Source: a candidate division LCP-89 bacterium B3_LCP (GTDB taxonomy: Bacteria; Electryoneota; B3-LCP). From it: 64,000 nucleotides of DNA. Within the stretch, counting starts at the first letter, position 1. Each line of letters opens with the position of its first letter. Where the stretch lies: positions 242,668-306,667 of the forward strand of contig NJBN01000005.1 in assembly GCA_005223185.1 (NCBI GenBank), read 5' to 3'. Below, one piece after another: positions 1,977 to 64,000 of this stretch. The notes beneath the pieces are model-generated. The model was not told where the DNA came from. It made no database searches and saw only the letters and a list, made by a program, of their open reading frames with translations. The position numbers and the translations under genes are program-made.

Positions 1977-3284
1977 TTACTTCATCAATACCATCTTATG
2001 CAAAGCATTAAATTCTCCTGCGCTTATGCGGTAGATGTAGACACCCGATGAGAGACCTGTTCCGTCGAAGACAGCCTCATGCGTTCCCTCTTCCCGCCAG
2101 CCCTCTGCAAGCTCAGCAACCATGCGACCGCTGATGTCGTAGACGGTTAGCTTGACTTCTGAAGCTTCGGGTAGCGAGAAGCCAATCGTAGTTACTGGAT
2201 TAAACGGGTTAGGGAAGGCACTACTTAGAGAAAATTCCTTGGGCATCGCTTCCTCGGTAGTGGTGATCTCATCCAGGAAAGGCTCACCCGCACAGAACCA
2301 ACCGCTACTCCATTCATCGCCTTCAACGAAAACACTGTCCTCTAATTTAGTGAACTCGAAGAAGTCGTAATCCCATACAGTGTAGGGGTATACCCCTACA
2401 TAGCCGTTATAAGAGTATATCCCTGCAGGTGCACCTGCAGGAACTGCCTGAGTCCGATCTCTATTGGCAGACCATCCAGGTGGTACTGTCAGTGTAATTG
2501 GACCTATTATCGGCCCAAAGATTGCGCTGTTGGGCAACGTTATATCGGTCCAGACTTCAAATGTATCTACGAGCGTTCCCAAATGCTCTACAGAAATATT
2601 GAAGTCAAAGCTGCCACCTGAGGCAGGAATTACGACTGGAGTATAGGCGGGTGTCAATACAACATCAGCAGAGGTTGGATAAGCATCAGGATATACAATT
2701 ACAGAATCAGCGTAAATGTAGTCCCCAAACTCCGTATCATCATTGTTAGCTGCATTTCCGGTGAAACAGATATACGCTCCGTTAAGGTTCATGGGAGCCG
2801 TCCATTCGAAAATCCAGTAAGCAGAATCGATCATTCCTACATATGTGCCAGCAAATGTCTGTTTGACATAATCCCGAATTGGCTGGGGATTGTCGGAAAG
2901 CTGAGTATTCGTCGGATCTAAAATGGAGAAGCTTCCTTGGGCAGTCCACGGACCCCAAGGATACCACCCCTCCTCAGCAGTAACCTCAAAACCCCACCGG
3001 CTGGCCAGAGCATCTCTTACTATTATGGTACACTGGTAGGTTGCACCCATGGAATATTCTAATGGATGTCCCTCTATGCGTATATCACCAAGCCCGGTGT
3101 TTAGATCATACGAATTGTGACATTCAGTACAATTCATTTCGAATTGAGGGATAGCAGGGGGAGGGGGCCAAACCCAGAAGAAAGCAACGTGGTCCGGTGG
3201 TCCAGTAGAATACGCTTGCGAGGTCTGCGCTGTAAAAATTAGCGCTGATAAGCAGCAGATAGTTATGGTTAGATGCTTTTTCAT
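1977..3284 (-). CDS. Secreted protein with N-terminal CxxCH motif and T9SS sorting domain
   Basis: The protein has 435 residues. A Sec signal peptide (about 1-24, ending TSQA) is followed by a region with CTECH, a c-type haem-binding pattern. The stretch after it (GDIRIEGHP, YxMGATYxCTIIVRD, RWGFEVTA) resembles the Reeler/choice-of-anchor V domain, in which an N-terminal CxxCH is common. The centre is beta-rich, and about the last 85 residues are a T9SS type A sorting domain (NPFNPVTTIGF, YDISGRM, SSGVYIYRI). A GGAG site is 7 bases before the ATG. Its C-terminal 18 residues are almost identical to those of the next upstream gene. It is probably exported across the outer membrane by a T9SS encoded elsewhere. 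Haem attachment is possible but unproven, because a single CxxCH can also bind nothing. Confidence 0.75.
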   Translation of the reverse strand: MKKHLTITICCLSALIFTAQTSQAYSTGPPDHVAFFWVWPPPPAIPQFEMNCTECHNSYDLNTGLGDIRIEGHPLEYSMGATYQCTIIVRDALASRWGFEVTAEEGWYPWGPWTAQGSFSILDPTNTQLSDNPQPIRDYVKQTFAGTYVGMIDSAYWIFEWTAPMNLNGAYICFTGNAANNDDTEFGDYIYADSVIVYPDAYPTSADVVLTPAYTPVVIPASGGSFDFNISVEHLGTLVDTFEVWTDITLPNSAIFGPIIGPITLTVPPGWSANRDRTQAVPAGAPAGIYSYNGYVGVYPYTVWDYDFFEFTKLEDSVFVEGDEWSSGWFCAGEPFLDEITTTEEAMPKEFSLSSAFPNPFNPVTTIGFSLPEASEVKLTVYDISGRMVAELAEGWREEGTHEAVFDGTGLSSGVYIYRISAGEFNALHKMVLMK

Positions 3285-3370
3285 AATCTTCTCCGTTTTG
3301 TTATTTTTAGTTTAAACCAGAGTAAATTTATCGGGGTGGTTGATATGCCACCCTAATTGTTAATTTGTTT

Positions 3371-4336
3371 CTACTTCACCAACACCATCTTGTGCAAAGC
3401 GTTAAACTCTCCTGCGCTGATGCGGTAGAAGTACATCCCGGAAGCGAGGTTCGACGCATCCCAGGTAACTTCGTGGTAACCTGCATTCCGGTAACCATCG
3501 ACCAGGTCAGTTACGCGCTGCCCTTTTATGTTGTAGATGCTTAAGCGTACCAGTCCGTCCACCGGCAATCCAAAGCAGATAGTGGTAACCGGATTGAAGG
3601 GATTGGGATACGCTCCCATAGCTTCATAATCATCAGGAATGGCGTATTCCACCTCTGTCAGGCCAATTTGATCGAAGGGATCGGGAAAGCTGCAGGTGGG
3701 CAGGTTGGCATCGAAATCATAGTCGAAGTCAACAGGGCCATCCTTAACCCAGGAGAAAGCATCCGTATGCCAGATGTCGTATTCTGGATGCCAGCCTGAG
3801 TAGATGCGGAAATCATAGTTACCGCCGGGCCAGCCGCCGGGACCACCGGGAACCGGATACCAGACATCCGGCCGGTTGATCTGCCAGCCTGGCTGGTAAT
3901 TGGTGATCTCACGTAGAATGAGAGTGGTTGTGTCTGCGCTCGGTCCTGGTTCATAAATCTTGTCAATCCAGATGTCATAGTCCAGAGGTACCGTACCCTG
4001 GTTTTCGCCCCAGATGGAGTAGTACAGGATTCCTCCGCCAGCCTGGATGGGAGAACCGGATACGTACTCCACATCTACAATCATTTCTGGCACAGGCTCT
4101 GAAAATGTAAAGTACATGAAACCGGCATAGTTCGTGAGGTTCCCACCGTCAATTTTACCGATGACTACCTGCCCCAGGCACTGTTCTGAACTGTACTGAC
4201 CTCCCTGGCTTTTGCCACCGAGGTTATCATCCACCAGGATGCGGCTGCTGAACTGCGCCGATGCCAGCCCGGTGAAAATGAGCAGGCAGAAGATCAGACA
4301 GCAGACTCTAACCAGCCGTTTGTATTGTATTTGCAT
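3371..4336 (-). CDS. Secreted T9SS-sorted protein of unknown function
   Basis: This 321-residue protein starts with a signal peptide (hydrophobic residues about 10-26, ending ASAQF). A beta-rich middle has many Trp, Tyr, Gly and Pro residues and no enzyme motif I recognise. It ends in a T9SS type A sorting domain (NPFNPVTTICF, YNIKGQR, SGMYFYRI). A GGAG site lies 7 bases before the ATG. The gene sits 86 bases upstream of the CxxCH secreted gene and 64 bases downstream of the repetitive fibre-like gene, all on the same strand, so they may form one transcription unit. A small GGGTGG/CCACCC hairpin lies in the downstream gap. Function is unknown. Confidence 0.75.
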   Translation of the reverse strand: MQIQYKRLVRVCCLIFCLLIFTGLASAQFSSRILVDDNLGGKSQGGQYSSEQCLGQVVIGKIDGGNLTNYAGFMYFTFSEPVPEMIVDVEYVSGSPIQAGGGILYYSIWGENQGTVPLDYDIWIDKIYEPGPSADTTTLILREITNYQPGWQINRPDVWYPVPGGPGGWPGGNYDFRIYSGWHPEYDIWHTDAFSWVKDGPVDFDYDFDANLPTCSFPDPFDQIGLTEVEYAIPDDYEAMGAYPNPFNPVTTICFGLPVDGLVRLSIYNIKGQRVTDLVDGYRNAGYHEVTWDASNLASGMYFYRISAGEFNALHKMVLVK

Positions 4337-4400: not shown

Positions 4401-6749
4401 CTACCTGTTTTTCATCCGTTCAAGTTTGGCCAATTCTTCTGGACTCATGATATCAGCTTTAGTGATTTTGTTCTCTCCCAGTTGAGCTATGGCCAGCCAG
4501 TCGAAGCTGATGTTGGCATCTCCCGCACCGGATCGAACTGCAAAGCCTGAGGTGGAACTTGATTCTACGTACAGACCACTCCAGCCATTCCTGGGAGTCA
4601 GGAATACTTTAGGTGATTCCCCGTTGGCAAGCATACCGCTGGTGGATCTATCGAAGGAGACAGTTGCGCGGCCCTGAGAAAGAGTTGCCGAGCCGGTCAG
4701 ATGGACCTGTTGAGTTTCACTGTATACTGCCGGGAGCTCTCTTCTGGAGCCATCTCCGCCAACTACATCCAAACCCCATCCAGCAGTAGCAACGGCTCGT
4801 CCGTATACGTAAAGACCATCACCTGAGGAAGTGGAGGAGGTACTCCACACTTCCGTACACCAATCACCATCATCATCGTCTTTAGCGAAATAACCTGCAT
4901 TTCCTGCTACAGTAAAACTTCCAAGAACATAAGTTCCAACTGATGTCCCCGCGTTTGATGTGAGGTGTAACACATCGCCGAAACCAGTGGAGTTATTCCG
5001 TATATCCATAGTAGGCCAAGTTCCACTCCCATAAATCTGCCATATTCCCGAATCCAAATTAAGCGGATTTTGTAAGTCCGATATAGATATATTTCCATCC
5101 ATAATTTTATCGGATGTTATGGCATCAGCAGCTATGTTATCTGTTGACACAGTTTCATACGCAATCTTGTCCGAAGTCACCGCACCTGTATCGATGTTAT
5201 CTGTCATCACACCTTCATACGCAATCTTATCCGAACTCACCACACCTGAAGCGATGTTATCTTCCGTCACGGCATCATTTTCGAGTTCGCTATTCCCGAT
5301 GGACGTCCCCAGGACTGACACTAAAGTAACATCACCCGATGTACCACCACCAGTCAGTCCATCTCCAGCAATGACGGCGGTAATGTCGCCCGTGCCTACG
5401 GTAAATCCCAGGTCATCCATCGTGATGGTTCCGTCCAAAATCTTATCGGATGTCACTGCACTCCCTCCGAGATCAACATTGTGAACCGCTCCATTCTGAA
5501 TCTTGCCAGATCCCACCGAATTACCTTCCAGTTCATTGGTCCCGATGGACGTCCCCAGGACAGCATAGAGTGTTACATCACCCGATACACCACCTCCCGT
5601 CAATCCATCTCCAGCAATGACGGCGGTAATGTCACCGAATTCGATATCTGGATCCAGGTCCTCCTCCAGGATTGTCCCGTTCAGAATTTCATCAGTTGTC
5701 ACCGCATCAGCCTCGAGTTCGCTATTTGAGATCGCACCTTCAGCAATATCTAATCCCGTGATAGTCTCGTCCACAATTTCATCAGTATCGATGGACGTCC
5801 CCAGGGCTGACTCTAAAGTTACATCACCCGATGTGCCGCCACCCGTCAATCCATCTCCGGCAGTGACGGCGGTAATGTCGCCGCCCATGCTGACGTCTGG
5901 ACCCAGGTCTATCATCGCGATGGTTCCGTCTAAGATTTCTGTTGTTGTCACCGCACCTAGCGCAATATCAAAGGCCGTGATGGTTCCGTCCACAATTTCA
6001 TCAGTATCGATGGACGTCCCCAGGGCTGACTCTAAAGTTACATCACCCGATGTGCCGCCACCCGTCAATCCATCTCCGGCAGTGACGGCGGTAATGTCGC
6101 CGATACCTGCGGTAAATCCCAGGTCCACCTCCATGATGGTTCCGTCTTCGATCTTGTCAGAATTAACCGCATTATTCGCGAGTTCGCTATTTGAGACTGC
6201 ACCTGCAGCAATATCTAATCCCGTGATAGTCCCGTCCAGAATTTCATCAGATTCCACCGCATCTGTAGCAATATCAAATGCCGTGATGGTTCCATCCGCG
6301 ATTTTCGCAGAAGTCACCGCATCATCAGCGATTTCCAGAGTTCCTATGGCTCCCGGCGGGACGCTCTCAGCTTCCGCAGCCCACATGGAGGCCATGCTGT
6401 AGGTGATCCTCTGCCGGGGAGTTAAGGTTACAGCAGCGACAGTTATCTCCATCCAGTAGTCGTTCTGGCTGAAATCCAGCGTTTCCAGAGTTGTCGTCTC
6501 TCCTAAAATCACATTGTAGATGCCATCATCAACCTGAACTGAATCGGTTTCACTCCATACGGAGGCACCTCCCGTTTCCTGTGAGAAGATGGCAAAGACG
6601 AACGCGTACGTACCATGAGCCGGTTGACCGTTCTCCTCCAATATCCCCTGGAAGTTGACCGGCGGATTGGCCTGAGTGATCGAAGGATGCAGCGCCAGGA
6701 TAGCCACTAGCAGCCCGGTCATTACTAAAGATTTGATTAAGGAATTCAT
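4401..6749 (-). CDS. Exported repetitive fibre-like protein (GDITAVxAGDGLTGGG and DGTI/SDKI repeats)
   Basis: From the chosen start the protein has 782 residues. I take the ATG at 6749 because AGAGAGG lies just before it and a good signal peptide (MNSLIKSLVMTGLL to SITQA) follows; an in-frame ATG 81 bases upstream would add a charged, non-signal extension. A globular N-terminal domain (about 30-130) is followed by a long array alternating GDITAVxAGDGLTGGGxSGDVTL modules with short units such as DGTITxxDI and NAVxSDKI. These are typical of tail-fibre or trimeric beta-helix stalks. The C-terminal part (KVFLTPRNxWSGLYV, GFxVRS, FDWLAI) resembles domains at the end of exported fibre-like proteins of FCB bacteria. 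There is no T9SS sorting signal. It is probably a surface fibre or adhesin. A structured leader RNA with an intrinsic terminator precedes it. Confidence 0.75.
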   Translation of the reverse strand: MNSLIKSLVMTGLLVAILALHPSITQANPPVNFQGILEENGQPAHGTYAFVFAIFSQETGGASVWSETDSVQVDDGIYNVILGETTTLETLDFSQNDYWMEITVAAVTLTPRQRITYSMASMWAAEAESVPPGAIGTLEIADDAVTSAKIADGTITAFDIATDAVESDEILDGTITGLDIAAGAVSNSELANNAVNSDKIEDGTIMEVDLGFTAGIGDITAVTAGDGLTGGGTSGDVTLESALGTSIDTDEIVDGTITAFDIALGAVTTTEILDGTIAMIDLGPDVSMGGDITAVTAGDGLTGGGTSGDVTLESALGTSIDTDEIVDETITGLDIAEGAISNSELEADAVTTDEILNGTILEEDLDPDIEFGDITAVIAGDGLTGGGVSGDVTLYAVLGTSIGTNELEGNSVGSGKIQNGAVHNVDLGGSAVTSDKILDGTITMDDLGFTVGTGDITAVIAGDGLTGGGTSGDVTLVSVLGTSIGNSELENDAVTEDNIASGVVSSDKIAYEGVMTDNIDTGAVTSDKIAYETVSTDNIAADAITSDKIMDGNISISDLQNPLNLDSGIWQIYGSGTWPTMDIRNNSTGFGDVLHLTSNAGTSVGTYVLGSFTVAGNAGYFAKDDDDGDWCTEVWSTSSTSSGDGLYVYGRAVATAGWGLDVVGGDGSRRELPAVYSETQQVHLTGSATLSQGRATVSFDRSTSGMLANGESPKVFLTPRNGWSGLYVESSSTSGFAVRSGAGDANISFDWLAIAQLGENKITKADIMSPEELAKLERMKNR
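5771..6100 (-). repeat. Near-identical in-frame DNA repeats inside the fibre-like gene
   Basis: A block of about 110 bp starting at 5771 recurs almost exactly at 5990, a 219-bp period equal to 73 codons. Weaker copies lie around 5290-5400 and 5540-5640. The repeats encode the GLTGGG-GDVTLESALGTSIDTDEIVD segment. Such identity suggests recent duplication or gene conversion and could allow changes in length. Confidence 0.8.
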
Positions 6750-6828: not shown

Positions 6829-6986
6829 AAAAAAGCACAATCGGATTCACTACCCCTCAGAGTATGAATCCAACTGTGCCTTCGTTTAGCAGGCTTTTAA
6901 ACTGTCTCGGCAAGAGTACTCACACCCCGAATGCAGGTTTCTCCTTACCACGCTAACCGCAGATTATGGTCAAGTCCGTTGCGGTT
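6829..6986 (-). ncRNA. Structured leader RNA, copy A (class unassigned)
   Basis: The transcript from the promoter at 7012-7040 folds, on the minus strand, into a basal stem AACCGCA/TGCGGTT (plus 6980-6986 with 6955-6961), a conserved core AGGAGAAACCTGCATTCGG with a TCGG/CCGA stem, and a perfect 15-bp hairpin (plus 6835-6849 with 6865-6879) followed by six T residues. The hairpin loop CATACTC can pair with GGGTGTG in the core (plus 6921-6927), a pseudoknot. The same architecture occurs at 63080-63240 with compensatory changes. The terminator end lies 80 bases before the start codon, so this looks like a transcription attenuator or riboswitch. I do not recognise the class. Confidence 0.8.
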
Positions 6987-7011: not shown

Positions 7012-7040
7012 AATATAGTAATTTATCATGAATAAGTCAA
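7012..7040 (-). promoter_or_regulatory. Promoter of leader RNA copy A and the fibre-like gene
   Basis: On the minus strand TTGACT (7035-7040), 17 bases, TATATT (7012-7017). The spacer end and -10 (TTTAC/ATTAC before TATATT) closely resemble the promoter of leader copy B. Confidence 0.8.
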
Positions 7041-28484: not shown

Positions 28485-31400
28485 ATGATGTTTCGCACCT
28501 TTGCAGTTCTAACAGCTTTAGTGATGATTCTTTCGCTTGCCGTAGTGGCTAGCGAAATCACGATTCATCGCGACCTGAACATCCCTGAAATAGAATACAG
28601 GGATGGTTACCATCATTTCACCACTTTCCCGGGTCCTTTGTACGGCGAACCGGGCAATCCGGAGTTACCCTACGTGGGACAGACAGTCTTGCTGCCACCC
28701 GGTGAAGAGGTAGTATCAATTCAATTGAACAATGAAATATGGGCACTCGCCGCAGAAGGCGTCAAACCCTTTCCAGCGCAGCCGCCTGTACCCTACTCCC
28801 ATACTGGTGAACAGGTATTCACTCCCCCGAACCAGTCAGTCTATAACGCCGATGAGCTCCATCCGGCATCTCCGGTATCATCTTTCAGGACTGATTTCCT
28901 CAGCGGCCATGGAATCGGATCGTTCTCCATATGTTCAGCACGTCTTGTGCCAGCATCAGGGGTACTTGAAGCATTGACGTCTTTCGATATGGTTATCCAG
29001 ACGGCGCCAACTGCCAGAGCGCAGAATGCATACGCGACTATGCTGAAGAAAACTCAGGCAGTCAACCAGAGGTTAGCCAAATCCGTTGATAATATTGATC
29101 TTCTATCGGCATACGGCGCAACTGATAATACTGACGTAGTGTCAGTTAATTACCTGATCATATCATCTCAGGAAATAGCGGAATACTTCCAGCCGTTGGC
29201 TGAATACAGATGCAGCAGAGGACAGCAGACTGAGATAGTGCTGGTGGAAGATATCGACATTCAATATGCCGGTTTGGATTTAGCTGACAAGATGCGCAAC
29301 TGTGTGATAGACTATTACCAGATGAACGACCTGGAATATGTACTGATGGCTGGCGATGCCGAGTACGTACCTAAAAGAGGTCTCTTCGCGCAGATAGGAG
29401 GAACGGTCGATGAGGATATACCGGCGGATCTCTACTTTTCCAACTTAGATGGTAATTGGAATGACGATGGCGACAGCCGCTGGGGTGAACCCGGTGAAGC
29501 TGATCTCTATTCCGAAGTAGCCGTAGGGCGCATGGCAATAGACAGCGAAGCCGAAGCTGAGAATTTGATCAACAAGATCATCATGTATGAGAACACTCCG
29601 GTTGTCGGCGATTTAGAACACGCACTGATGTTAGGTGAAGACTTAGGTTGGATAGTTTGGGGAGGTGAGAATAAGGAGGAGATCCGTTTAGGCAGTTCGA
29701 TGTGGGGGTACACAACGGTTGGGTTTCCACCAAACTTCAACGTTGACGTATTGTACGATATGTATTCCGTTTGGTCTCCAATGGACGATCTAATACCGGC
29801 TCTGAATGACGGTCTGCACATGGTAAACCACCTGGGACACTGCAATGTAACCTATTCCATGAAACTGACTAACGGGGTTGTTACGGATGAATATCTGACC
29901 AATAACGGCATTAACCACAACTTCTACATCCCTTATTCGCAGGGGTGTTACAACGGCTCCTTTGATAATAGGACGACCAATTACACTTACTCAATTGACT
30001 GCATAGCTGAGGAGTTTACCACAATACAAAATGGCGCAGTCGCCTATCTATGCAATTCCAGATATGGGTGGGGTAGCTATAGTAGCACCGGCGGACCGTC
30101 ACAGTATTACGACCGTCAGTACTACGATGCCATTTTCAGCGAAGAAATTTATAGTATAGGCTGGGTTAATGCCGATTCCAAAGAAGATAATGTGCCGTTC
30201 CTCAGTCAAGGAGCAACTTACTGGGTTTACTACGAAATGAACCTGCTGGGTGATCCGGCTATGGATATCTGGACTGCTTCGCCGCAGAGTATAACAGCAA
30301 CACATCCCGGACAAATAGAAATAGGTACAACCCAGCTAAGCGTGAGCACCGGCGTTCCCTATGCCACGGTAGCCGTCAGTCGCGAGGATGAAGTTTTAGG
30401 ATCAGGAACCGCCAACGCTTCAGGTACAATTCTACTGATTCTAGAAGAGCCGATTTCCGAAGCAGGGGAACTGAGTTTGACTGCCTACAAACATAATTAT
30501 CTGCCCTACCAAGGCGTGATATATGCAGTGCCGGAAAGCGGTCCCTATATGTACCTGACCAGTGTCAGTTACAGTGATGCTTCCGGCGGAAACGACGATG
30601 GCAATGCTGACTTAGGTGAGACGCTCGATATCAGCGCTGATTTCATGAATATCGGTTATGATCCGGCAGTTGGGATAGATGCTTTTCTGACGTGCAATAC
30701 TTGCGCAGTCAGCATCATAGATGGCGTGTTAGAGGTCGGTGATCTGGGTTCTATGGAAGCGGTTGAATTTGAAGAAGCCTTTACGGTACAACTGCTGCCA
30801 TCGGTGCAAGATGGTCAGGTTTTACCTTTTATCATCACTCTGGAAGATAATCAGGGATCAAGCTGGGAATATTATTTTGAGGTCACCGCTTATGCGCCGC
30901 AACTGCAAATGGTTTCCCACACTATAACGGATACCAACGACAACTGGATGACACCGGGGGAAACGGGCAATATCGAAATAGAAATTATCAATAATGGTAC
31001 TGGAGGGACTACTGACCTGGAATTCTGGCTGAGCACTGACAATGCTCTGGCTACTGCGAACCCACAGGGAATTTCTGCGGATGCACTGGCATCCGGGGAA
31101 TCCTCAGCGGTCGTTGGTTTTGAATTCAGCATAGATCCTTCTATGCCGGATCCTTCTTCGCTGGTGGTTTATATCACCGCCCGAGATAGCCGGGACTATG
31201 AGAAAGGATTCTTGATTGAGCTACCGGTAGGTGGATACTATGATAGCATGGAATCCGGTGTGGGTGAATGGACTCACAGTAGCATAACACCGGGATTTGA
31301 CGACCAGTGGGGGATGACGGAGCTGCTGAACCACACTCAAAACGGTAACTCCAGCTGGCATTGCGGTAATGAGGGTTTATATACCTCGAATCTGGATGCT

Positions 31401-32381
31401 GCCTTGGTTACGCCGGAATACACCATTGACGGCTGTCATCAGCTTCAGTTTCATCAATGGATGAACGCAGAGGTTGCATCTCAAACGATGTATGATGGAT
31501 ACGCTCATGATGGTGGTATAGTAGAGATGTCTTATAATGGCGGTGATTTTGAACAGATCATTCCGCGTGGCGGTTATCCTTTCCTAATCCGTGATAACGG
31601 TTCACCCATGCCGTTTGCTCCTGAAACTCCGGTATTTTCCGGACAGATACTCTGGGAGGAAGCGATTTTCGACATCGAAGGTCAGGGAACCGTGCAGTTT
31701 CGATTCAGGTTTGGGACGAATGGTGACATTACTCTGAACGGCTGGTTCTTAGATGATCTGTTCTTAGTCAAAACATCTGATCCCAACCCACCGACAAATG
31801 TAACCATAGTCAATGCCTCTGCGGGTGTGCCTGAAGTTGTGCTGACCTGGAACACGCCGGATGTCGAGTTCCTGGATAATAAAGGGATCCCCGGAAGCCG
31901 TCCATCGCAGACTTTAGAAGAGTACCGCGTTTACCGCAACGGAGTATTTATCGATTCAGTCCAGGCTTTGACCTACAACGATAACCTAAGCTACTTAGAA
32001 CCGGGGACGTATTTCTACCAGGTTTCCGGAGTTTTTGACGGCGTTGAGGGATCGTTGTCAGCGCCAGCATCGTACCAATACACCAGCGTCGAACCGGAAA
32101 CCCAATCCGCGGTTCCTACAGATACCGAACTATCGGCTGCTTACCCCAACCCCTTCAATCCGGTTGTAAACCTGCGGTTAGACATTGCCACGCCGCAGTT
32201 GGTGAGATTGACCGTCTATGACCTGCTGGGAAGGAAAGTTGGCACTCTTCATGATGGTCAAATGATGACCGGTCGTTACACCATAAGTTGGGATGCCAGC
32301 GGGCAATCCAGCGGGATGTACTTCATTCGCATGGAAACAGAATCTTACGAAGGTTTCCAAAAAGTGCTGCTTTTGAAGTAA
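28485..32381 (+). CDS. Gingipain-like C25 cysteine protease, T9SS-secreted
   Basis: The protein has 1298 residues. A signal peptide (1-23, VVAS) and a propeptide region precede a peptidase C25 domain. The catalytic pair is His452 (NHLGHCN) and Cys488 (YSQGCYNGSFD), and the preceding VLMAGDAEYVPKRG and DLYSEVAVGRMA segments are family hallmarks. Ig-like and cleaved-adhesin/MAM-like domains follow (SMESGVGEWTHSS, WMNAEV region), then a fibronectin type III-like domain (PEVVLTWNTPD) and a C-terminal T9SS type A sorting domain (AYPNPFNPVVNLRL, YDLLGRK, SSGMYFIRM). It is probably an extracellular endopeptidase for protein scavenging. A perfect AT-rich hairpin (28362-28386) lies in the upstream gap. 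Confidence 0.93.
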   Translation: MMFRTFAVLTALVMILSLAVVASEITIHRDLNIPEIEYRDGYHHFTTFPGPLYGEPGNPELPYVGQTVLLPPGEEVVSIQLNNEIWALAAEGVKPFPAQPPVPYSHTGEQVFTPPNQSVYNADELHPASPVSSFRTDFLSGHGIGSFSICSARLVPASGVLEALTSFDMVIQTAPTARAQNAYATMLKKTQAVNQRLAKSVDNIDLLSAYGATDNTDVVSVNYLIISSQEIAEYFQPLAEYRCSRGQQTEIVLVEDIDIQYAGLDLADKMRNCVIDYYQMNDLEYVLMAGDAEYVPKRGLFAQIGGTVDEDIPADLYFSNLDGNWNDDGDSRWGEPGEADLYSEVAVGRMAIDSEAEAENLINKIIMYENTPVVGDLEHALMLGEDLGWIVWGGENKEEIRLGSSMWGYTTVGFPPNFNVDVLYDMYSVWSPMDDLIPALNDGLHMVNHLGHCNVTYSMKLTNGVVTDEYLTNNGINHNFYIPYSQGCYNGSFDNRTTNYTYSIDCIAEEFTTIQNGAVAYLCNSRYGWGSYSSTGGPSQYYDRQYYDAIFSEEIYSIGWVNADSKEDNVPFLSQGATYWVYYEMNLLGDPAMDIWTASPQSITATHPGQIEIGTTQLSVSTGVPYATVAVSREDEVLGSGTANASGTILLILEEPISEAGELSLTAYKHNYLPYQGVIYAVPESGPYMYLTSVSYSDASGGNDDGNADLGETLDISADFMNIGYDPAVGIDAFLTCNTCAVSIIDGVLEVGDLGSMEAVEFEEAFTVQLLPSVQDGQVLPFIITLEDNQGSSWEYYFEVTAYAPQLQMVSHTITDTNDNWMTPGETGNIEIEIINNGTGGTTDLEFWLSTDNALATANPQGISADALASGESSAVVGFEFSIDPSMPDPSSLVVYITARDSRDYEKGFLIELPVGGYYDSMESGVGEWTHSSITPGFDDQWGMTELLNHTQNGNSSWHCGNEGLYTSNLDAALVTPEYTIDGCHQLQFHQWMNAEVASQTMYDGYAHDGGIVEMSYNGGDFEQIIPRGGYPFLIRDNGSPMPFAPETPVFSGQILWEEAIFDIEGQGTVQFRFRFGTNGDITLNGWFLDDLFLVKTSDPNPPTNVTIVNASAGVPEVVLTWNTPDVEFLDNKGIPGSRPSQTLEEYRVYRNGVFIDSVQALTYNDNLSYLEPGTYFYQVSGVFDGVEGSLSAPASYQYTSVEPETQSAVPTDTELSAAYPNPFNPVVNLRLDIATPQLVRLTVYDLLGRKVGTLHDGQMMTGRYTISWDASGQSSGMYFIRMETESYEGFQKVLLLK

Positions 32382-63035: not shown

Positions 63036-63064
63036 TTGACATTTTGGTAGAAATTTACTATATT
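63036..63064 (+). promoter_or_regulatory. Promoter of leader RNA copy B
   Basis: TTGACA (63036-63041), 17 bases, TATATT (63059-63064). The sequence up to and including the -10 (AATTTACTATATT) is nearly the same as in the promoter of leader copy A. Confidence 0.8.
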
Positions 63065-63079
63065 AATCAATAAGCACAA

Positions 63080-63240
63080 TGCCGTAGTGTTTTAAATTCT
63101 TGGCGGCAATCTTCCGACAATAATAGGAAAGACCTGTATTCGGAGTATGGGTCACCTTGCCGGGTAAGATTAAGAGCCTGCTTGAAGAAGGCACAGTTAG
63201 ATTCATACTCTGTGATGAGGTGGATCCGGTTGTGCCTTTT
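63080..63240 (+). ncRNA. Structured leader RNA, copy B (class unassigned)
   Basis: The layout of the 6.9-kb leader recurs. The basal stem is TGCCG (63080-63084) with CGGCA (63104-63108), the core is AGGAAAGACCTGTATTCGG, the small stem TCGG/CCGG, then GAGCCTGCTTGAAGAAGGC and a long hairpin from GGCACAGTTAGATTCAT to GTGGATCCGGTTGTGCC (63190-63236) with TTTT behind it. The loop CATACTC (63204-63210) is complementary over seven bases to GAGTATG (63143-63149). Stem sequences differ from copy A but pairing is kept. It precedes the secreted or outer-membrane gene starting at 63291 by about 50 bases. Confidence 0.8.
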
Positions 63241-63290
63241 GGTTTTGTGAAGGCTCAGGTTATAAGATTAGAACAAATAAGGAGGATAAA

Positions 63291-64000
63291 ATGAAAAAGT
63301 TATCTTTACTAAGTTTAATGGGTGCCATCTTGGTTGTGTCATTGCTGACTGCCACCACCTCCGCACAGCCGCCCGACACGCTGTGGACAGCGACCTTCGG
63401 CGGTGGTAATCAGGATGCTTGCTTGTCCGTCCAGCAGACCACCGACGACGGCTACATCTTGGGAGGGCGTACCGAATCCTTCGGCGCGGGTGGCAGTGAT
63501 ATGTACTTGGTGAAAACCGATTCACTGGGCGATACGCTCTGGACGAAAACCATCGGAACCAGCTATTGGGAATATTGTTATTCCGTCCAGCAGACGTCCG
63601 ACGACGGCTATATCTTGGGGGGATGCTCTGACGCCTTCTCCCCGTATGAAGATATGTACCTAGTGAAGACCGATTCCCTGGGCGATACACTCTGGACGAA
63701 GACCAGAACCTACGCCGCAAATCTGCAGTGGACCAATCCGTTCGGGAAGAAGCAGCTGCTGACGGGAGGACTCCATTTCGAACTCGACGACGGCGAGAGT
63801 CCCGACGACGAGCAGTTCACCCGCAAGACCGAAAGCGGGATCGCCAAGGACGCTCCGGACTCGCACTGGAAAAACTACGCCGCCTATCTTCAGGATGAGT
63901 GGTTGGTTTCAGAGCGCCTCCGGTTCACACTTGGACTCCGCTGGGATCTGTTTGACTTTGAATCGCGACCGGATTCACTCTACATCCAGCCGGAAGGCAT
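63291..64000 (+). CDS. Truncated secreted gene: propeller-like start switching to a TonB-receptor-like sequence
   Basis: The frame is open from the ATG (GGAGG upstream) to the window edge, 236 codons, so the gene is incomplete. A signal peptide (about 1-25, ending TSAQ) is followed by two repeats of the type DDGYILGG...DMYLVKTDSLGDTLWTKT, typical of secreted propeller proteins that usually end in a T9SS sorting domain. Near residue 138 (base about 63704) the sequence changes abruptly to YAANLQWTNPFGKKQLLTGGLHF and NYAAYLQDEWLVSERLRFTLGLRWDLFDF, which look like beta-strands of a TonB-dependent receptor barrel. No stop or frameshift marks the change. A true fusion or an assembly chimera are both possible. 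Confidence 0.7.
   Translation, partial: MKKLSLLSLMGAILVVSLLTATTSAQPPDTLWTATFGGGNQDACLSVQQTTDDGYILGGRTESFGAGGSDMYLVKTDSLGDTLWTKTIGTSYWEYCYSVQQTSDDGYILGGCSDAFSPYEDMYLVKTDSLGDTLWTKTRTYAANLQWTNPFGKKQLLTGGLHFELDDGESPDDEQFTRKTESGIAKDAPDSHWKNYAAYLQDEWLVSERLRFTLGLRWDLFDFESRPDSLYIQPEG

Follow-up and report, generated by a model that had tools for sequence, protein, structure and literature searches.

The leader RNA upstream of a signal-peptide gene in the window (the whole 64,000-nucleotide stretch of DNA analyzed here) belongs to a real, previously undescribed family of cis-regulatory RNAs. The original prediction, a transcription-attenuating leader of no known class that might be a riboswitch, is the best reading of this RNA, supported by both its absence from Rfam and the covariation of its helices. 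We therefore consider it probable, with confidence somewhat better than even, that these are cis-acting leader RNAs that act by transcription attenuation and most likely constitute a candidate new riboswitch class. Covariance-model searches place about 40 relatives in 23 genomes and three phyla, and riboswitch-like families of this size and spread that lie outside Rfam and have a coherent regulon of signaling and surface genes are rare and open to direct testing.

The leader RNA and its copies in the home genome

Copy A of the leader occupies 6986 to 6829 of the minus strand, between a promoter and the signal-peptide gene, and its 3' end is a 15-bp terminator hairpin followed by six T residues. 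The sigma-70-type promoter (7012 to 7040, minus strand) is made up of TTGACT (7040 to 7035), a 17-nucleotide spacer and TATATT (7017 to 7012), and it matches 10 of 12 consensus positions (shuffle P = 0.02). The parts of the RNA, all on the minus strand, are a basal stem P1 found in home-genome copies only (6955 to 6986; AACCGCA at 6986 to 6980 pairing with TGCGGTT at 6961 to 6955), a possible helix P2 (6909 to 6949; GGTAAGG at 6949 to 6943 with TCTTGCC at 6915 to 6909), a hairpin P3 (6918 to 6938; ACCTGCAT at 6938 to 6931 with GTGTGAGT at 6925 to 6918), and a conserved core (6881 to 6915) that has the family form GCCUUGUCGN-P4-NAAGUCG and the copy A form TCTTGCCGAGACAGTTTAAAAGCCTGCTAAACGAA. 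These are followed by the motif AAGGC (6878 to 6882), which serves as both the 3' strand of an antiterminator, P2*, and the base of the terminator 5' arm, and by the intrinsic terminator itself (6829 to 6882; stem 6882 to 6865 with 6849 to 6832, U tract 6834 to 6829). The 15-bp hairpin (6879 to 6865 with 6849 to 6835) contains two G-U pairs and runs directly into TTTTTT at 6834 to 6829. The fold of copy A is more stable than those of dinucleotide shuffles (z = -2.9), and downstream of the terminator come a ribosome binding site, GAGAGG, and the ATG at 6749. Reading the sequence thus bore out the promoter, the basal stem, the 15-bp hairpin with six T residues and the loop-core complementarity that had been described for copy A.

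Copy B, on the plus strand at about 63066 to 63241, has the same layout, as had been claimed, and scores 121 bits against covariance model R2. Its promoter (63036 to 63064, plus strand; TTGACA-17-TATATT) matches 11 of 12 consensus positions (shuffle P = 0.005), P3 lies at 63131 to 63153, CCUU at 63155 to 63158, AAGG at 63188 to 63191 and the U tract at 63237 to 63240, and its fold is likewise more stable than dinucleotide shuffles (z = -3.7). The leader had been taken for a two-copy element, which proved too few: searching the home genome at the DNA level gives five close copies, the four others being 77 to 80% identical to copy A, and covariance models raise this to eight matches, namely the five close copies, two good diverged ones and one weak diverged one (C16:252429). 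All five close copies share one plan on a single strand, in which promoter, RNA and terminator are followed after 30 to 80 bases by a ribosome binding site and a signal-peptide gene.

The gene after copy A (4401 to 6749, minus strand) encodes a secreted protein of about 782 amino acids with an N-terminal signal-like sequence and no Pfam match. It probably forms one operon with two further genes on the same strand (1977 to 4336) whose products carry Por_Secre_tail (T9SS sorting) domains (PF18962; E = 2e-9 and 1e-9). The gene after copy B (63291 to 64000, plus strand) encodes a secreted beta-propeller-like protein; it starts as a beta-propeller and from about 63720 onward resembles the barrel of a TonB receptor (PF00593; E = 1e-6), and it may be an assembly chimera, since the window stops at the contig end. 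Elsewhere in the window, the gene at 28485 to 32381 encodes a gingipain-like peptidase of family C25 that carries a T9SS sorting domain, and the organism therefore probably has type IX secretion. A cobalamin riboswitch (331 to 560; 110.6 bits) stands ahead of a beta-propeller gene at 699 to 1718.

Distribution of the family and conservation of its structure

Covariance model R1 was built from the five home copies and rebuilt twice, as R2 and then R3. R1 already finds members in the same taxonomic family and in another family of its own phylum, and after the two rebuilds the genomes with matches numbered 7 of the 39 from the home phylum, 15 of the 82 from a second and 1 of the 4 from a third. 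Across a spread of 386 genomes (E ≤ 0.001), the only matches outside the home phylum were in the two genomes that had led to the other phyla, and the model is therefore specific. BLASTN against 60 relatives returned nothing beyond the home copies, and pattern searches of viral contigs gave no match. The sole match of a DNA pattern search in genome contigs, in Scardovia wiggsiae, was taken as chance. Some low-scoring relatives (L073, L075 and L077) match mostly via the terminator. At one locus, two members on the same strand are separated by about 1.2 kb (L064:165-287 and L064:1501-1682) and precede a roadblock/glyoxalase-like gene pair and a gene for a secreted TPR protein; the first of them carries a long hairpin insert in P4.

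The architecture common to the family is the P3 hairpin, then the core GCCUUGUCGN-P4-NAAGUCGAAGGC, then the terminator with AAGGC at its 5' base. Among 38 distinct model-aligned sequences, two-sided compensatory changes occur in 28 of 31 pairs, distributed over P3 (8/8), P4 (5/5) and the terminator (15/18), so that the earlier claim that pairing is kept rather than sequence gained strong support once homologues were aligned. The covariation score for these sequences is 0.556, compared with 0.237 ± 0.012 for shuffles that ignore kinship among the sequences and 0.13 or less when the partners are slid; so many changes across three phyla have no easy explanation other than structure-preserving covariation. 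A ten-sequence MAFFT alignment, not fitted to the model, still shows two-sided changes in 14 of 31 pairs (score 0.348 versus 0.227 ± 0.018 shuffled). When 26 members were aligned on sequence only, P4 was paired in 87% of cells (20 to 42% when slid), P2* in 89% and the terminator in 88%, with P3 misregistered. Two diverged members, L028 and L030, have no P4. The covariation of P3 and P4 points to an aptamer-like structured domain conserved across species.

Three features of the home copies do not extend to the family. P1, with 89% of cells paired across the five home copies, was not seen in relatives outside the home genome, and, being absent in most relatives, it was rejected as a general family feature. 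P2 is paired in 74% of cells in the home copies; it occurs in copies A, L002 and L003 and, with changed sequence, in L027 (the same as L016; GACAAGG/CCTTGTC by inspection), and other members are without it. As a general feature this helix (GGTAAGG/CCTTGCC) was likewise rejected, since it is missing in most relatives; where present, it could possibly compete with P2*. The loop-core pseudoknot joins CATACTC (6866 to 6860) to GGGTGTG (6927 to 6921) on the minus strand of copy A, so that the loop and 3' strand of P3 are also complementary to the terminator loop. Its complementarity is found in all five close copies (97% of cells, with one mismatch in L004), and a G-U pair of copy A becomes A-U in copy B and G-C in L002. 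Exchanging partners between genomes, however, revealed no significant family-wide specificity (permutation P = 0.09), and the pseudoknot is for that reason a local home-genome feature or an alternative pairing. The basal stem and pseudoknot of the original prediction thus stand for the home genome but not for the family.

Antiterminator and proposed switch

Although the terminator does not include the GCCUU segment of the core, this segment is conserved and is the complement of AAGGC at the terminator foot. This GCCUU/AAGGC antiterminator, P2*, is the general switch element of the family and was absent from the earlier description. Its four inner pairs are complementary in 95% of cells, with one two-sided compensatory change (in L048); the support for P2* is this conserved complementarity, the near-invariance of AAGGC leaving the helix little freedom to covary. 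Because this AAGGC also forms the base of the 5' arm of the terminator, an RNA can adopt P2* or the complete terminator but not both. The end of P3 abuts the start of P2*, so the two helices can stack.

When members were folded at full length, the terminator won in 95% of them, and when the transcript ended before the terminator 3' arm, P2* was likely (>0.5) in about 40%. The home copies, copy A among them, have weak P4 and P2* helices, and almost no P2* pairing is predicted for their truncated transcripts; P1, P2 and the loop-core pseudoknot may take the place of these helices there or alter them. The dominance of the terminator at full length and the appearance of P2* in truncated folds lead to a model of default termination, in which a bound signal would favor P2* and read-through. 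RNA polymerase would leave the promoter and the nascent RNA would fold P3 first, after which GCCUU of the core would pair with AAGGC to form P2*, enclosing P4 and the two conserved strands GUCGN and NAAGUCG. When no signal is bound, the longer terminator would prevail and transcription would end in the U tract ahead of the start codon. A ligand that stabilizes P2*-core-P4 would occupy AAGGC and part the remaining hairpin from the U tract, and the gene would be read. As modeled, the switch is probably of the ON type.

Downstream genes, alternatives and relation to known riboswitches

Most relatives, like 5/5 close copies, lie directly upstream of a gene on the same strand; in a few listed cases the gene start is several hundred bases downstream and control is less certain. 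Many of the downstream genes encode signal-peptide proteins with Chlam_PMP, beta-helix, FG-GAP or DUF5122 repeats, so exported surface proteins, the regulon originally proposed, are indeed included, but the targets also comprise chemotaxis and sensor-regulator genes. Among the former are CheW (L036 and L069), CheR with a HAMP protein (L071) and 4HB-MCP (L036). The latter include a response regulator (L069), histidine kinases (L053 and L072) and two GAF-sigma54 regulators (L077 and L081), and PAS/His kinases are among the genes downstream of family members. Wzz (L078) and roadblock (L064) genes are downstream genes as well. This broad range of targets is similar to the large and disparate gene set of the GEMM motif in the period when c-di-GMP had yet to be recognized as its ligand (PMC7266159).

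The family RNA would most likely sense a small molecule, and the best guess at its identity is a cyclic dinucleotide, c-di-GMP or another. In L054, from another phylum, a c-di-GMP-I-GGC riboswitch (RF03167; 68 bits) lies 104 bases upstream of a family member in the same leader. The order within L054:1308-1627 is c-di-GMP-I-GGC, a terminator-like hairpin with a T run, the new-family member with its own terminator, and a signal-peptide gene. Tandem riboswitches are known, some combining c-di-GMP-I with other classes (PMC9481103), and this tandem, the sole one seen, is a hint of a c-di-GMP link. GGDEF domains occur in all element-bearing genomes tested, but also in 79 of 80 genomes overall, and do not discriminate; a c-di-GMP-I riboswitch was found in 9 of the 80. 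It is conceivable, and we propose it only tentatively, that the family is a further, structurally unrelated cyclic-dinucleotide riboswitch class, in which c-di-GMP, cGAMP or another such molecule locks P2*-core-P4 as an ON switch for surface, chemotaxis and sensor genes, sometimes together with c-di-GMP-I in one leader. Should the ligand prove to be a second messenger, the family would reveal the way in which poorly known bacteria with type IX-like secretion tie lifestyle signals to their exported proteome; any other ligand would amount to a novel signal governing chemotaxis and surface genes.

An antitermination or repressor protein that recognizes P3 and the core and so governs terminator formation is an unlikely alternative, though two simple hairpins and a short conserved core would suit a protein too, and the core may be small, since L028 and L030 lack P4. 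The many unrelated downstream genes in three phyla speak against it, as does the tandem with a true riboswitch; no shared RNA-binding neighbor gene appeared in the 1.5-kb flanks examined, and the conserved unpaired strands within P2* look like a ligand pocket. It is improbable that the element is a small RNA gene, with a promoter, a trans-acting structured RNA of about 160 nucleotides and a terminator, placed upstream of genes merely by position. The element does have its own promoter and terminator, and thermodynamic folding favors termination; however, the same-strand placement described above comes with a ribosome binding site within tens of bases, several copies per genome each precede a different gene, and a small RNA would not need GCCUU conserved against the terminator foot. 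Very improbable is a plain terminator or duplicated intergenic repeat without regulatory function: the other close copies of copy A could be recent duplicates that share parts for that reason, and some weak matches are mostly terminator, but covariation over diverged sequences includes P3 and P4, both outside the terminator, and the element is kept across phyla at a fixed place ahead of genes.

A ligand-binding attenuator remains the preferred reading, and it can be set against known classes. The comparison with all Rfam families that had been proposed as a refutation test found none of the 4,227 families of Rfam 15 reaching its gathering threshold on any member's element; RAGATH-23 (opposite strand) and SNORA14 matched at lax thresholds only and were dismissed as chance. 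In cmscan, neither c-di-GMP-I nor c-di-GMP-II matched over the elements, although the neighboring c-di-GMP-I-GGC was detected; in the reverse search, model R3 did not match c-di-GMP-I aptamers. A literature search for a third c-di-GMP riboswitch class found none in the library searched. With c-di-GMP-I (GEMM-I; RF01051/RF03167) the family shares a similar target range (surface proteins, chemotaxis and signaling), a terminator output and several copies per genome, whereas the aptamer differs: that of c-di-GMP-I has an enclosing P1 with two side-by-side hairpins, which is not seen in the new family. The regulon of c-di-GMP-II (RF01786) is of the same kind as that of the new family, but the pseudoknot typical of its aptamer is not seen across the family. 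The core GCCUUGUCGN-P4-NAAGUCGAAGGC sets the family apart from known attenuators in Rfam 15. With terminator/antiterminator riboswitches generally, the family has in common a promoter, a structured leader, a mutually exclusive helix and an intrinsic terminator ahead of the ribosome binding site.
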